From Candidatus Liptonbacteria bacterium (GTDB lineage: Bacteria; Patescibacteriota; Minisyncoccia; UBA6257; 2-01-FULL-56-20), in assembly GCA_016867315.1 (NCBI GenBank), contig VGJV01000008.1, forward strand, positions 1 through 40,011: a stretch of DNA of 40,011 nucleotides, given 5' to 3'. Numbering within the stretch: the first letter of the stretch is position 1; the number at the start of each line of letters is the position of its first letter. The position numbers and the translations under genes were made by a program. The notes beneath the pieces were generated by a model. The model was not told where the DNA came from, ran no database searches, and saw nothing but the letters and a program-made list of their open reading frames with translations. Shown piece by piece: positions 19,623-33,520 of this stretch.

Positions 19623-19680
19623 TGCCACATAGTAGTGGATTTAGGATGAAACTATTATGAAGATATGTCCTACCTCTTCA

Positions 19681-19860
19681 TCAAAAGTACCCGCTCGATA
19701 TTCCCCCATTCGAAAAGTCGGAAGTGGAGGAAGCATGTATAAGCTGCCGCACCATAAGTCCGAGCGCCTGGGTTCCCGCCTGCCGAATCTCCTGTATAAC
19801 GCGAAGTTGGGCCATCCGATGGTTAAGAGTAGCCTGATATTCGGCGAGCAAGGCACGTAC
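19681..19860 (-). pseudogene. C-terminal fragment of an unidentified protein
   Basis: ...PEQRAAVRALLAEYQATLNHRMAQLRVIQEIRQAGTQALGLMVRQLIHASSTSDFSNGGISSGYF*; no independent start, abuts the intein-like region. Confidence 0.4.
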
Positions 19861-20807
19861 CGCCGCCCGCTGCTCCGGAACGGCTCTACCCGCGCCAGAT
19901 CGGATCGGGTGTACCCCGCGCCTCGTACAGTTTGTGCGCCTGATTGCTGGCAAACAGTTCCAAGTTCTCCAGCCGGTTGTCCTGCGGGTCGTGGTTCCGA
20001 TGATGCACCACTTCCGACCGAAGCAGGCACCGCCCCAGCGCACGCGCAACGAACAGCCGATGCTCCATGACATACCCGTCCAGCCGCGCCATCGGTAGGA
20101 ACTCCACCGGGCACCGGACGTACTTGATCGGCTTGTAATTGCCGTGCTTGCGGAAGTATGTCACGCCGCCCTTCCATGCCGGGTTCCCCGCCCCGGTCAT
20201 CTTGGTCAGGTAGGACGCCATGCTGTCCGCCGTCCACGCTGCCCGCCCCTTGTGAGCGTGTTTCGCCCACTCCTTGCCGCGCACCTTGCCGTTGCATTCC
20301 CGCGAACAGAACGGCTTCTTGACCTTCCGCAACCATGCGTCCGGTTTCCATGTTTCCTTGCCGCAGGTCGGGCAGGCAATCATACGCCCCTTGCGCTCTG
20401 CAAGCGGTTTCTTCGCTCGCTTCGGTTTCGGTATGCACACCTGCCCGCAATACTGATTCCGCGCCGCCTGTTCCTTCGTGTGGCACGGGAAGGGCTTTGA
20501 GCAGGTCTTGCACATTTTCCAGAACGGGTACACGCGCTTCGCGTTCCAGTGTTTCGGCAAGGGCGAATGCGTAGCCTCCGCCTCGTTCAACAAGGCAACG
20601 ATGGTTTCTGGAGACGATCTGGTCTGTGTAATCGCCGCGAATACGAAAGGCGGTATCGTCGTAGTCGTATTCGACAAGCTCTTGGATGGGTTCCCAATTA
20701 AAGGTTTCATGCTTTGCATCGTAGCACAATGCGCGACCCTTGTCAATGGCTTTACGGTACGGCTCCCACCGCCCATCGATAAGCAATTCCGTGTCCTCGC
20801 TCAAACA
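19861..20807 (-). other. Intein-like (Hint) insertion in the methylase; C-terminal splice motifs not seen
   Basis: After WVYG: CLSEDTELLIDGRW (block A-like Cys1), then DYTDQIVSRNHRCLVER (block B-like with His); frame stays open to ...YTRSDLARVEPF, then joins unrelated sequence. Confidence 0.6.
19886..20776 (-). CDS. HNH endonuclease with zinc knuckles, overlapping the intein-like frame
   Basis: MCKTCSKPFPCHTKEQAARNQYCGQVC, ACPTCGKETWKPDAWLRKVKKPFCSREC, MEHRLFVARALGRCLLRSEVVHHRNHDPQDNRLENLELF; 5' end of ORF uncertain. Confidence 0.75.
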   Translation of the reverse strand: MGGGSRTVKPLTRVAHCATMQSMKPLIGNPSKSLSNTTTTIPPFVFAAITQTRSSPETIVALLNEAEATHSPLPKHWNAKRVYPFWKMCKTCSKPFPCHTKEQAARNQYCGQVCIPKPKRAKKPLAERKGRMIACPTCGKETWKPDAWLRKVKKPFCSRECNGKVRGKEWAKHAHKGRAAWTADSMASYLTKMTGAGNPAWKGGVTYFRKHGNYKPIKYVRCPVEFLPMARLDGYVMEHRLFVARALGRCLLRSEVVHHRNHDPQDNRLENLELFASNQAHKLYEARGTPDPIWRG

Positions 20808-21122
20808 CCCGTACACCCACGCGATCATGTCGCGAATCTCAAACCCCGCGTCCTCGATGTTCACCGCCATCCGGTGCTGCGTTCGCGTCCCGGCAAACGA
20901 GAGCAGGTGAGCCCCCGGCTTGCACGCCGCTAGAACCAGTCGCCATATATCAATACTCGGCACGTCGTAATCCCACGCCTTGCCCATGAAGCTCAGTCCA
21001 TACGGCGGATCGGTCACAACGGCATCTACCAGCGCAAGCGTCGGCAGTACGTCCGCGCTGTCGCCGAGGTAGAGCGTGCATAGCGCGTTTCCGTGCCTGA
21101 TGATGACGGGTTGGTTGGACAT
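20808..21122 (-). pseudogene. DNA methyltransferase N-terminal extein (phage type)
   Basis: LYLGDSADVLPTLALVDAVVTDPPYGLSFMGKAWDYD...GAHLLSFAGTRTQHRMAVNIEDAGFEIRDMIAWVYG; C-terminal extein not found. Confidence 0.7.
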
Positions 21123-21146
21123 TATGCTTGCCGCCTGCGCGACCAA

Positions 21147-21406
21147 TCAATCGCATCCCGCGCAGTGAGAATAAGGATAGGGGTAGTAATGTTGCGCGCT
21201 CGCGCATCGCGGCACACTTCAAAACCATTTTTCTTCGGAAGCATAAGATCGAGCACCACCACGTCATAATCCCCGTGATTCATCTCTATCCGCCGCTCTC
21301 CCATTTCCCCGTCCAAAAGATAATCAGCCGCATAGCCGTTCTTTTCGAGGCCCTTCTGAAGGGATTTCGCGAGTTTCTCTTCGTCTTCGATAATAAGTAC
21401 TCTCAT
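21147..21406 (-). pseudogene. Response regulator receiver domain, truncated
   Basis: MRVLIIEDEEKLAKSLQKGLEKNGYAADYLLDGEMGE...YDVVVLDLMLPKKNGFEVCRDARARNITTPILILTARDA then unrelated; Lys/beta5 region and output domain missing. Confidence 0.75.
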
Positions 21407-21603: not shown

Positions 21604-23400
21604 ATGCAAAACCTACGAAATATAGCGATTATCGCCCACGTAGACCACGGGAAATCCACCCTCACGACTGAAATCTTAAAACAGTCTGAAACGGATCTCG
21701 GGAAAGCGGGCGAACAGGAAATGATCATGGACTGGAACGAGCTCGAAAAAGAGCGCGGTATTACGATCTTCTCCAAGAACGCCGCAGTGGAATATAAAGG
21801 TACGAAAATCAATCTTATCGACACCCCGGGCCACGCGGACTTCGGCGGCGAAGTAGAGCGCATATTAAACATGGCAGATGGCGCGCTTCTTCTCGTAGAT
21901 GCCCAGGAGGGCCCGATGCCGCAAACTCGGTTCGTATTGAAGAAAGCGCTCGCCGCGGGACACAAAATCATTGTAGTGATAAATAAAATCGATAAACCGA
22001 ACGCACGCGTAAATTATGTAGTAGACAAAGTCCTCGATCTTTTTATTGAACTCGGCGCCTCTGATGCCCAGCTTGAATTTCCCATTGTGTATGCCGCCGC
22101 GAAACTCGGAAAAGCGGGCCGCTCCCCTGAGCTTCAGAGCATGACGAATCTCGAACCTCTTTTTCAAACGATCTTAGAAACTATTCCTTCTCCTCAGGTG
22201 AATTCCGAAGGCCCCCTTCAAATGATGGTGGTATCGGTAATGTACGACAACTACAAAGGCAAAATCGGTATTGGACGCGTGCATCAAGGAACAGTCCGTA
22301 GCAGCCAGTCAGTTACCCACGTAAGCCGGGAAGGCAAAACCAAGACCTCTCCGATCACAAGCCTCATGACCTTCCAGGGACTCCTCCGTAAAGAAACTCC
22401 TGAAGTAAAAGCCGGAGACATCGCGGCGATCTCAGGAATCACCGATATCAACATTGGAGACACGATCGCAGATGCGACGAATCCGGTCCCCTTGCCTCCT
22501 ATCGCAATTGAAAAACCTACCGTAAAAATGATTTTTTCGGTTAACGATTCTCCTTTTGCCGGCACGGAAGGCGAATTTTGTACCTCTCGCAATCTAAAAG
22601 AACGGCTCGAAAAAGAACTCGATAATGATGTCGCACTCCGCGTGGAACCCACGCAGTCTACAGATTCATTCATTGTGAGCGGCCGCGGCGAACTTCACTT
22701 GGCTATCCTTATCGAAAAAATGCGCCGGGAAGGATACGAACTCCAAGTTTCCCGCCCCGAAGTAATTTATAAAGAGGAAGAGGGCAAAACGCTCGAACCC
22801 GCAGAAGACGTATGGGTAGAAGTGCCGGAAGTCTACTCCGGGATAGTGATTGAAAAAATGAGCAAGCGGAAAGGAGAGTTGAAGAACATGAATGTGGAAA
22901 ACGGCGTAGCTCATTTCCACTTCTTTATTCCCATAAGAGGTCTTATCGGTTTTCGGAACGAATTTTTGATCGAAACCAAAGGCACCGGCATCATTAATAC
23001 TCTTTTCGCAGGCTATTTCCCAAAATGGGAAGAGATCAAGGGTACTCCCCACGGTTCGCTCATCGCGCATGAACCAGGCACCTCCACGGCATATGCGCTT
23101 CTAAGCTCTCAAGAACGCGGGGTGATGTTTATAGGTCCGGGGGCAAAAATCTATGAAGGTCAGGTGGTCGGAGAAAATGCCAAAGCGGAAGATCTGGTAG
23201 TAAACGTCTGCAAGCAGAAACAACTTACCAACTTCCGGGCCAAAACCGATGCGGTAACGGACGACCTCGTTCCTCCCCGCGCGCTTTCCTTGGAACAAGC
23301 GCTTGAATACATCGGGGATGATGAGTTGGTAGAAGTCACTCCTCAGAGCATCCGGCTTCGAAAGAAAACCCTTTCGAACACTCTCCGGAAAAAGAAGTAG
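21604..23400 (+). CDS. typA: Translational GTPase TypA/BipA
   Basis: IIAHVDHGKSTLTTEIL, ERGITIFSKNAAVEYKGTKINLIDTPGHADFGGEVER, VINKIDKPNAR; C-terminal BipA-like domain. Confidence 0.95.
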   Translation: MQNLRNIAIIAHVDHGKSTLTTEILKQSETDLGKAGEQEMIMDWNELEKERGITIFSKNAAVEYKGTKINLIDTPGHADFGGEVERILNMADGALLLVDAQEGPMPQTRFVLKKALAAGHKIIVVINKIDKPNARVNYVVDKVLDLFIELGASDAQLEFPIVYAAAKLGKAGRSPELQSMTNLEPLFQTILETIPSPQVNSEGPLQMMVVSVMYDNYKGKIGIGRVHQGTVRSSQSVTHVSREGKTKTSPITSLMTFQGLLRKETPEVKAGDIAAISGITDINIGDTIADATNPVPLPPIAIEKPTVKMIFSVNDSPFAGTEGEFCTSRNLKERLEKELDNDVALRVEPTQSTDSFIVSGRGELHLAILIEKMRREGYELQVSRPEVIYKEEEGKTLEPAEDVWVEVPEVYSGIVIEKMSKRKGELKNMNVENGVAHFHFFIPIRGLIGFRNEFLIETKGTGIINTLFAGYFPKWEEIKGTPHGSLIAHEPGTSTAYALLSSQERGVMFIGPGAKIYEGQVVGENAKAEDLVVNVCKQKQLTNFRAKTDAVTDDLVPPRALSLEQALEYIGDDELVEVTPQSIRLRKKTLSNTLRKKK

Positions 23401-23406
23401 CGAACC

Positions 23407-23430
23407 AAAGCCCCGCCAAAGCGGGGCTTT
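23407..23430. terminator. Bidirectional terminator between typA and microprotein 1
   Basis: aaagccccgc caaa gcggggcttt. Confidence 0.85.
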
Positions 23431-23452: not shown

Positions 23453-23518
23453 TTATTCTCCAGAAGGAGGCGCCGGTTTTTTGGGCTCCTGGGGCTCTGG
23501 ATCAAAATGCTTGAACAT
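23453..23518 (-). CDS. Proline-rich microprotein 1 (21 aa), paralogue of 23707-23796
   Basis: MFKHFDPEPQEPKKPAPPSGE*; shares HFDPxPQxP with microprotein 2; terminator after stop. Confidence 0.55.
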   Translation of the reverse strand: MFKHFDPEPQEPKKPAPPSGE

Positions 23519-23547
23519 ATTTTTATATGCGTGGACGCGTTATTAGA

Positions 23548-23576
23548 CTCCTTTGCGGATTTACGACTATTACCGC
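23548..23576 (-). promoter_or_regulatory. Leader motif of microprotein 1 (also resembles the lexA-flanking hairpin loop)
   Basis: minus strand gcggtaatagtcgtaaatccgcaaaggag, 30 nt before ATG. Confidence 0.5.
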
Positions 23577-23669
23577 GTTCCGCATATGCGCTTGAGCATA
23601 CAGAAAGGAATATGGAAATAAAATGAATTCGAAGAATAAATCCCGCACATACGTGTATGTGAGGGATAA

Positions 23670-23695
23670 AAATCCCCCGCGTGCGCGGGGGATTT
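23670..23695. terminator. Terminator hairpin after microprotein 2
   Basis: aaatcccccgc gtgc gcgggggattt. Confidence 0.8.
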
Positions 23696-23706
23696 GAAAA
23701 GCATTG

Positions 23707-23796
23707 TTACTTTATTGAAGGCGTCGAAGGACCGATTTGGGGCTTCGAAGGACCTTGCTGTGGCTTCTGCGGCTGCGGATCAAAATGGCTCATCAT
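23707..23796 (-). CDS. Proline-rich microprotein 2 (29 aa)
   Basis: MMSHFDPQPQKPQQGPSKPQIGPSTPSIK*; internal GPSKPQIGPSTP repeat; terminator after stop. Confidence 0.55.
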   Translation of the reverse strand: MMSHFDPQPQKPQQGPSKPQIGPSTPSIK

Positions 23797-23820
23797 CTCT
23801 GTATCAGAAGATTAATTAAC

Positions 23821-23848
23821 CTAACCCGCGGCATACGACCATAACCGC
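23821..23848 (-). promoter_or_regulatory. Leader motif of microprotein 2
   Basis: minus strand gcggttatggtcgtatgccgcgggttag aligns with the 23548-23576 motif (GCGGTwATrGTCGTA..CCGC), 25 nt before ATG. Confidence 0.45.
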
Positions 23849-23958
23849 ACCCCGTACGTGGGCATATCCATAGTAGAACTCCCCCACCCCTTTGCAATAT
23901 TGACAAAAAACCTCTTCATGACGGGTAAAAAATACCATTCTGGTATAGAATTTGAGCA

Positions 23959-24280
23959 ATGGAAACAAAAAAGTGCGCCCAGTGCAGCACTGATTTCTCG
24001 GTATTTCCGGACGATCTCGCGTTCTACCAAAAAATCGACGTTCCTTCTCCTACGCGTTGCCCGGAGTGCCGCTATATCCGGCGGCTTTTAGATCGAAACG
24101 AATACAATCTTTATAAACGGAAATGCGATGCCACGGGCGAACCTATTATTTCAATTTACCGCCCCGACGCCCCTTTCCCGGTTTTCAAACAAGACTATTG
24201 GAAATCCGACGCGTTCGATGCTCTTCCTTTCGGGAGAGATTTCGACTTCAGTCGCTCCTTTTTCGAACAAAGCCAGAGAG
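23959..24280 (+). pseudogene. Zn-ribbon Cys-rich protein, N-terminal fragment (paralogue of 31736-33520)
   Basis: METKKCAQCSTDFSVFPDDLAFYQKIDVPSPTRCPECRYIRRLLDRNEYNLYKRKCDATGEPIISIYRPDAPFPVFKQDYWKSDAFDALPFGRDFDFSRSFFEQ aligns with the 594-aa protein, then stops matching. Confidence 0.8.
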
Positions 24281-24404
24281 TCCACATCAGTGGATTTGCC
24301 GTGCGCGTGGAGTTCTAGATGCCGAATACAGGTATTGGCTGTCGAGGTATCCCCGATTAGAAAGCGCCTGGTGCCACGCATAGGCCAACCGACGACAACT
24401 GATA

Positions 24405-31735: not shown

Positions 31736-33520
31736 TTACGTGGTTTCCGCCTGATAACATTCCTCACAATACACGATTTCTTTTCGATCCGGCCCGTATC
31801 CCGTCTCAAATTGATTCGGACAAACGGCCGTTCCATGCGAATGAGCTGCGGAGTTTTTATATGCATCATTATTAGAGTTCGCTCCCGCACAGTCGCATTG
31901 TCGGGAATACAGCTGCAATCCGGTCCGTTGCTTCAACCGTTCAAAGGTTCGGCAATTGTGACAAAGCCGCGGCAGGGGCACTCCAAGTTTTCTATAAAAA
32001 GTAAGTTCATCAGGAAGAATCCGGAATGCCGTCGTGCAAAGCTGGTTGCATTTTCCCTCATGCTCACAGGCAATCACCTCGTTTGTAATCCCATCCTGCA
32101 CTTCCGAAATATGATCAGGAAGCTCGCGAGGCTGGAGAGTAACCTTATAATTTCGTTCCGCAGTCTCTCTCCAGTTGTATCCTTGGGAAACTATCTCCTC
32201 CTTTCCTAAGGGGAAATATTCCTGCGCCATGGATTCGTTATATCCCACTGGACTAATCTCCACAGGGAAAAATTCCCCGTACTTATATACCCGCCCCGCC
32301 TTGTCAGTGTACGGCTGTCGATCCATCTGTTCGATTATTTTGGCGCGGAGTTTTTCATACTCCTCTTTTGAATACTGCTTGTTTAAAATACAGTATTGTT
32401 TCTTCCGCACTCCCACGCACCCGAAAAGATAACCCGAGCCTGCGACCATTACTGAATATTCGACATCATGTGAGTCTTCCTGAGTAAAAAGGCAAAAGCG
32501 AACATTCTGCGTCCCGAGACCGCATGCATGGCATTCATACATAAGCTGGCCATTATCTCCCCAAATAGACCAATCGTAACAATCTTTGCAGCCAGGCAGC
32601 TCCTGAAGATACTGGCAGAATTTCAAATTCTCCCCGCTGCGCACGAGAAAAGAATTATGGACGTTTTTTGACTGGTCAATATAGTTTCCGCTCACCCGAA
32701 GGTTATGCAAACCCTCTAAAAACTTATTGGGGAATTTCAGCCAAAATTCGCGGGCCTGCGCTTTAACTTTTTCGTACTGCGCTCGCGATCCTAAATTCAG
32801 TTCTTTGAGCTTTTGCTGATATTCCTCTTTTGAATATTGCACATTCCAAATGCAGTATTGTTTTTTGCGAAGTCCCACGCATCCCAGACAATCGGAGCAC
32901 CCCGAACAGTTTTTCGAGAACCACATGGTATACGAATTCTCACAGTTATTGCAGCCGATATTCCGGTTTCCGGAAGTAACCCAAAACGAGTCATAACACG
33001 ATTCGCTTTTCCCAAGGTGAGACACATCCACGCAGTCACGACACTCCGTGATGCCATGGCCGTACATACAATCCTCAGAGTGGCTGCCATTGAAACACAA
33101 ATAACAATTTTTGGGTTCCGTGAAGTTGCTGCTGTAAGGGCTACGTACTTCATTCACCAAATTTAGATTTTTAAGCGGCACAGAGTGAAGAAGTTCGCTA
33201 AACTGCTCAAAAAAAGGTTTGTTGAAGTCATAGTCTCGCCCATAATCCAAAGGATCCCACTGATCGGAAATCCATATATCCTTTTCGTACACCTTATATC
33301 CGGAGTCCGGCGAATACATACTGAAAATATCCTTGCCTGAAAAATCACTCTTCCGCTTGTAAAGAATTCTTTCGTTCCGAAACGCCATACGCCGTTGCGC
33401 CCGGCATAGCCAGCAAAACGTAGGCGGCGGCACCTTCATCTTCTCATAGAACGCCAAGTCCTCTGCCTCGATTATGAAAGGCTGCTTACAATTCTGACAA
33501 TTTTTAGTTTGCTCGAGCAT
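31736..33520 (-). CDS. Large Cys-rich Zn-ribbon protein (594 aa), unknown function
   Basis: Zn-knuckle N-terminus NCQNCKQPF...CWLCRAQRR, related C-terminal domain CNQLCTTAFRILPDELTFYRKLGVPLPRLCHNCRTFERLK, internal duplicated LxGCVGxRKKQYCIxNxQYSKEEY. Confidence 0.8.
   Translation of the reverse strand: MLEQTKNCQNCKQPFIIEAEDLAFYEKMKVPPPTFCWLCRAQRRMAFRNERILYKRKSDFSGKDIFSMYSPDSGYKVYEKDIWISDQWDPLDYGRDYDFNKPFFEQFSELLHSVPLKNLNLVNEVRSPYSSNFTEPKNCYLCFNGSHSEDCMYGHGITECRDCVDVSHLGKSESCYDSFWVTSGNRNIGCNNCENSYTMWFSKNCSGCSDCLGCVGLRKKQYCIWNVQYSKEEYQQKLKELNLGSRAQYEKVKAQAREFWLKFPNKFLEGLHNLRVSGNYIDQSKNVHNSFLVRSGENLKFCQYLQELPGCKDCYDWSIWGDNGQLMYECHACGLGTQNVRFCLFTQEDSHDVEYSVMVAGSGYLFGCVGVRKKQYCILNKQYSKEEYEKLRAKIIEQMDRQPYTDKAGRVYKYGEFFPVEISPVGYNESMAQEYFPLGKEEIVSQGYNWRETAERNYKVTLQPRELPDHISEVQDGITNEVIACEHEGKCNQLCTTAFRILPDELTFYRKLGVPLPRLCHNCRTFERLKQRTGLQLYSRQCDCAGANSNNDAYKNSAAHSHGTAVCPNQFETGYGPDRKEIVYCEECYQAETT

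Follow-up and report, generated by a model that had tools for sequence, protein, structure and literature searches.

The preQ1-I riboswitch is a very small hairpin in the 5'-UTR, with about 5 bp and a long loop. Other cis-regulatory leader RNA motifs are orphans, collected in Rfam and in comparative genomic surveys (e.g. PMC2864571). Among very small proteins with a single zinc finger, the one-domain micro-proteins of Haloferax volcanii (PMC6562870) and Brz of Halobacterium (PMC2253796) are reported to have stress, lifestyle or regulatory roles. No description of the leader or the microprotein family presented here, and no report of a leader RNA of Patescibacteria's own, was found in the open-access papers searched.

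In this study, we analysed a stretch of 40,011 nucleotides from a Candidatus Liptonbacteria bacterium, referred to as the window. It contains two microprotein genes, each preceded by a short hairpin that we call the type A leader (stem GCGGY/RCCGC, loop AURGUCGUA). They are members of a microprotein family that had not been filed before, in which a zinc ribbon is frequent and a conserved hairpin leads the gene. The type A leader shares its size, short stem and long loop with preQ1-I. Unlike preQ1-I, it has on inspection no tail segment that pairs with the loop, no queuosine genes lie downstream, and it has no match in Rfam, where only tRNAs in the flanking DNA reached a gathering threshold. 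A preQ1-like pseudoknot was rejected, as the spacer holds, by eye, no conserved complement of the loop. Like the orphan motifs, the leader is a short structured 5'-UTR element with a conserved loop, a covarying stem and recurrent downstream genes; unlike them, it was found in one Patescibacteria class only in the searches made, and its genes mostly encode microproteins.

The ribbon pattern of the family, YxCPxC...PGxCPxC(N)xPM, resembles HMBD (PF19335) and rubredoxin-like zinc ribbons. However, the family members are stand-alone microproteins with a disordered tail, and the window copies are cysteine-free. The product of locus L044 came closest to PF19335 (22.8 bits, E 9.1e-5, gathering score 23.6), with other products lower and the window peptides without a match. 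Against the small zinc-binding families of NCBIfam, the best score was 17.9 bits, compared with a cut-off of 32 (NF033497), and the window peptides again had no match. No Rfam, NCBIfam or Pfam cut-off was reached by the leader or the microproteins. The proposal in an earlier note that an undescribed peptide family is encoded here is supported. The Haloferax micro-proteins and Brz are similar in being very small single-zinc-finger proteins, but they are archaeal, the abstracts of their papers mention no shared leader RNA, and a sequence relation to the present family is not established.

Two cassettes converging on typA

The features of the locus are as follows.

23870..23897, minus strand: candidate promoter of cassette 1, TTGCAA, 16 nt, TACTAT; weak (8/12 matches), read by eye
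23828..23848, minus strand: leader hairpin of cassette 1, GCGGTTATGGTCGTATGCCGC; 31.6 bits with covariance model R1, 25.9 bits with a matrix trained exclusively on other genera
23707..23796, minus strand: ORF of cassette 1, 29 aa, MMSHFDPQPQKPQQGPSKPQIGPSTPSIK; Pro/Gln-rich, resembling relatives
23665..23693, minus strand: hairpin terminator of cassette 1, a strong GC hairpin 3' of the stop, from fold and sequence
23555..23576, minus strand: leader hairpin of cassette 2, GCGGTAATAGTCGTAAATCCGC, with one base bulged; 27.6 bits with R1, 27.7 bits with the other-genera matrix
23453..23518, minus strand: ORF of cassette 2, 21 aa, MFKHFDPEPQEPKKPAPPSGE
23407..23430, minus strand: hairpin terminator of cassette 2, a strong GC hairpin 3' of the stop, common to the convergent typA; from fold and sequence, with a scan match on part of the stem
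21604..23400, plus strand: typA/bipA GTPase gene, a recurrent neighbour of type A microprotein genes

Both short ORFs and a GC-rich terminator fold behind each of them were thus found as the earlier note had described, and its view that a cassette made up of leader, short ORF and terminator has been duplicated was borne out. A strict terminator scan listed the terminator of cassette 2 only, and the candidate promoter of cassette 1 was absent from the strict scan output. As typA ends at 23400 on the plus strand and has its terminator in common with cassette 2, the cassettes converge on typA. The window contains exactly two copies of the leader core GCGGTNATRGTCGTA (23562-23576 and 23834-23848), each on the minus strand. 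The upstream motif that the earlier note placed 25-30 nt before each ATG is present, but its end (CCGC) lies 31 nt from the ATG in cassette 1 and 36 nt in cassette 2. An extra inverted repeat (CCCTCACATACACGTATGTGCGGG) lies between the cassettes at 23640-23665, directly past the terminator of cassette 1.

The two peptides have HFDPxPQxP in common, with three synonymous differences in Pro codons. The window has no other HFDP peptides, and no further copies were found in the source genome (879 kb, 99.5% complete). A search of 37 further genomes of this family gave no HFDPxP peptide either, its sole pattern match lying in unrelated sequence. HFDPxPQ, by which the earlier note had defined the peptide family, was ruled out as its signature by this absence in relatives, and it is the leader that defines the family instead. 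Two traits of the family are present in the window peptides, namely a type A leader upstream of the start and a Pro/Gln/Glu-rich tail. Neither peptide contains a cysteine or the N-terminal zinc ribbon.

Distribution of the leader and its genes

A covariance model (R1) was built from the 23-nt leader and run, with its successors R2 and R3, on the family, order, class and phylum. Candidates with a short 5' region and a short or known ORF behind it were kept, and matches within coding frames were dropped (L081, L083, L086, L088 and L092, among others). A zinc-ribbon profile then added members, whose upstream DNA was read for leaders. These searches, among them the use of a covariance model that the earlier note had proposed, led to 29 copies of the type A leader in 27 genomes, all of one class. 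The class is probably Paceibacteria because of the names Azambacteria and Wolfebacteria: a pattern scan of genome contigs gave real matches only in these two groups and in one further Patescibacteria MAG, while its matches in other phyla were without the cassette layout. Matches of R2 were sparse (18 of 245 genomes of the order, some of them within coding sequence), and the phylum-wide search gave no convincing leader outside the class.

A matrix from 18 leaders of other genera ranked the two window sites first and second at 27.7 and 25.9 bits, with the third site at 11.8 bits on both strands of the 40 kb. As this places the window leaders 14 bits above the third site, they are family members and not a product of model circularity. 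In the same-genus genome G033, ATATGCGGACGCGGCGATAGTCGTAAACCGC, an ORF (MKMQQVPPQQPKPGQPGQVAA) and a hairpin follow one another about 1.2 kb from typA on the opposite strand. In the third genome of the genus (G034), the cassette is absent at typA and the leader model had no good match.

Behind the 29 type A leaders are 18 zinc-ribbon genes, 8 tail-only genes and 3 others. The zinc-ribbon members have a 25-residue ribbon followed by a Pro/Gln/Glu-rich or acidic tail, e.g. MTSYKCPQCGAVSTQPGNCSKCNVPMVAVEEQVGADAPQQKEQTPQEPQPQQPQQ. The tail-only members are the window's two and those of G033, G007, G360, G303, G480 and G465. The remaining three genes encode an Fe/Mn superoxide dismutase (SOD; G007), a subtilase (G147) and a basic peptide (G136). 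Since the leader precedes such different genes, it is a module of the 5'-UTR rather than a component of the peptide gene itself. Its place and orientation are fixed, roughly 10-50 nt before the start codon. G038 and G147 have the same upstream gene and leader, followed by a zinc ribbon in the former and the subtilase in the latter. The SOD gene of G007 (L031/L051) carries TATAAT in addition to the type A hairpin in its 5' region.

In zinc-ribbon genes without type A, the ATG is preceded at 13-55 nt by a second leader, type B (AAAGGUCGY), in the form AAAGGUCG(C/U) or one closely similar to it. One or the other leader was present at nearly all of 45 zinc-ribbon loci examined, and WRGUCGY is the core common to both. 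At these loci, AAAGGTCG was counted 19 times in the 70 nt before the ORF and 9 times in all the other ~215 kb, taking both strands together. The stem of type B is weakly supported, with 20 of 500 shuffles as good. A glutaredoxin-like gene was found at 18 type B loci, usually just upstream. At L132-L161 and L169, AAAGGUCGY stands before zinc-ribbon microproteins, often behind a glutaredoxin gene.

The typA gene, in the earlier note a mere location, proved to be a recurrent neighbour. It lies within about 1.5 kb of a type A gene in 7 of the 27 genomes (G000, G033, G136, G388, G459, G086 and G458, of families f1, f3, f6 and f41), which represent few independent lineages. By our own rough estimate, taking typA and its flanks as ~5 kb of 700 kb, the chance of this linkage is <1% per genome. 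In families f3 and f6, the type A gene directly follows typA, and in G516 typA is beside a type B-like gene. This recurrence indicates that the typA side in the window is probably the old position of the gene, and the window peptides are probably ribbon-less descendants of a typA-linked microprotein.

Other features were observed around typA in the window. A 119-aa ORF on the plus strand (23959-24318, METKKCAQCSTDFSVFPDDLAFYQKI...) resembles the beginning of a Cys-rich protein of 586 aa, cut short. The full-length protein is encoded downstream of typA in G034 (L042 1647-3407), and the window itself also encodes an intact 594-aa relative on the minus strand (31736-33520). A DNA methyltransferase-like ORF (19641-21146, minus strand) is apparently interrupted after ...MIAWVYG, where CLSEDTELLIDG... 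follows with an intein-like start, and an overlapping frame at 19886-20776 may encode an HNH-type endonuclease. A response-regulator receiver domain at 21122-21406 (minus strand) ends abruptly beside the methyltransferase element, as though an insertion had cut it.

Leader structure and competing readings

We next consider how the leader may act. In 20 aligned leaders, the stem of 5 bp was paired in 96% of cells, and both sides changed in 3 of 5 pairs, by exchanges among G-C, G-U and A-U, among C-G, U-G and U-A, and between G-C and A-U. When these leaders were shuffled, the paired cells and the double-change cells were each matched by 5 of 500 shuffles. The outer four pairs in 25 leaders had 1 mismatch in 100 cells, and about one fifth of the stem cells were G-U wobbles. 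Because of the G-U pairs and compensatory changes, the leader is probably an RNA hairpin. Since conservation is greatest in this short hairpin, which lies in the untranslated 5' part of the mRNA, control is probably shared at the RNA level, in line with the earlier suggestion that the leader may be regulatory.

In the reading that we favour, which has in our judgement about an even chance of being right, a cis-regulatory 5'-UTR hairpin read by a conserved trans-acting factor controls one microprotein family with a stress-related role. Each cassette would give a short, separately terminated mRNA consisting of the hairpin with its near-invariant loop, a spacer of ~30 nt without a Shine-Dalgarno sequence, the ORF and an intrinsic terminator. 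The loop would be recognised by the factor, which may be an RNA-binding protein or, with lower probability, a small ligand. Its binding would set the translation or stability of the message. The products would form one gene family in which a disordered Pro/Gln/Glu-rich tail follows a small zinc ribbon, and the window lineage would have been reduced to the tail by loss of the ribbon and then duplicated. The linkage to typA, the linkage of the AAAGGUCGY branch to glutaredoxin and the SOD copy together suggest the stress-related role. Several results weigh against this reading: the sparse matches of R2, the weak stem of type B, the few lineages with typA linkage, and the -10 boxes and predicted folds of the window leaders described below.

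Since the leader persists without the ribbon, and in G147 precedes a subtilase behind the upstream gene of G038, its action would not depend on the product. That the zinc ribbon regulates its own gene is disfavoured, because the type A leader persists in G000, G033 and G007, where a profile search found no zinc-ribbon relative at E 0.01. Other signals were also looked for. The -10 boxes before leaders were no commoner than base composition predicts, and Shine-Dalgarno sequences did not differ between family ORFs (3/55) and control ORFs (5/86). Mimicry of the 16S decoding site (AAGUCGUAA at 1492-1500) was rejected because E. coli 16S and 23S rRNA contain the degenerate core five times, so that the match is not significant, and because the type B leader lacks the longer match. 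An upstream ORF starting from AUR in the loop was also rejected, as the triplet is mostly AUA and frames and lengths are not conserved.

It is unlikely, in our estimate, that the transcript is instead a small noncoding or dual-function RNA in which the loop is active and the window ORF is incidental or decaying. The leader is indeed conserved better than the peptide, the window peptides have neither a zinc ribbon nor a motif found in relatives, and the transcripts look short and separately terminated. However, the synonymous/nonsynonymous comparison, another check named in the earlier note, gave dN far below dS in relatives. This included a Pro/Gln-only pair (L093/L109; dN 0.11, dS 0.88, Fisher p = 1e-5), and dN was below dS in 12 of 12 further homologue pairs. 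The distance from leader to ORF is similar each time, and both window peptides keep HFDPxPQxP despite their synonymous differences. Since the comparison of the window pair itself (dN 0.32, dS 1.6) covers only 18 aligned codons and is biased by alignment, we infer translation of the window peptides from dN/dS in their relatives.

GUCG(U) within the loop offers the 5' arm of the leader an alternative partner to the downstream (G)CCGC. A riboswitch-type leader, in which the balance between these pairings responds to temperature or to a ligand, for example a metal ion, would use this property, and we consider such a device improbable. Both pairings are possible in nearly every leader (outer and inner, 96% and 97% of cells). 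Folding predicts the inner one for both window leaders, where the consensus stem is not thermodynamically favoured, and for G033, L093 and L104, and the covarying outer one for most others; the downstream genes include metal-binding ribbons and the Fe/Mn SOD. However, as the GUCG side hardly varies, the inner pairing is without covariation support, and covariation backs the outer stem only. Neither a terminator nor an anti-SD helix is visible as an expression platform, and the Pro/Gln-only products bind no obvious metal. A wider proposal, which seems to us quite doubtful, is that of a bistable leader RNA class confined to one Patescibacteria class, its 5' arm switching between two 3' arms that resemble each other. 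Such RNAs would control a regulon made up of disordered and zinc-ribbon microproteins, with ties to redox stress and to the ribosome GTPase TypA/BipA.

A DNA-level site, for example a repressor operator just downstream of the promoter, would agree with the position of the leader near a promoter and with its inverted-repeat stem, but a DNA palindrome does not tolerate the G-U wobbles in the stem, the orientation is fixed, and the loop rather than the arms is most conserved, so that this explanation is very unlikely. Chance, in the form of two unrelated ORFs with a coincidental repeat, draws on the ORFs being very short and is scarcely credible, refuted by the ranking of both sites with the other-genera matrix; homologous cassettes in the same genus and other families also speak against it.

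Meaning of the family

Patescibacteria have tiny genomes. The hairpin is kept where the protein has probably lost its folded domain, and also stands before SOD and subtilase genes; as a probable regulatory input, it would have a partner that can be searched for directly. The microproteins, from 21 to about 115 aa in length, are skipped by ORF callers and are placed beside typA and glutaredoxin genes. This placement provides a testable entry to the stress control of translation in reduced bacteria.
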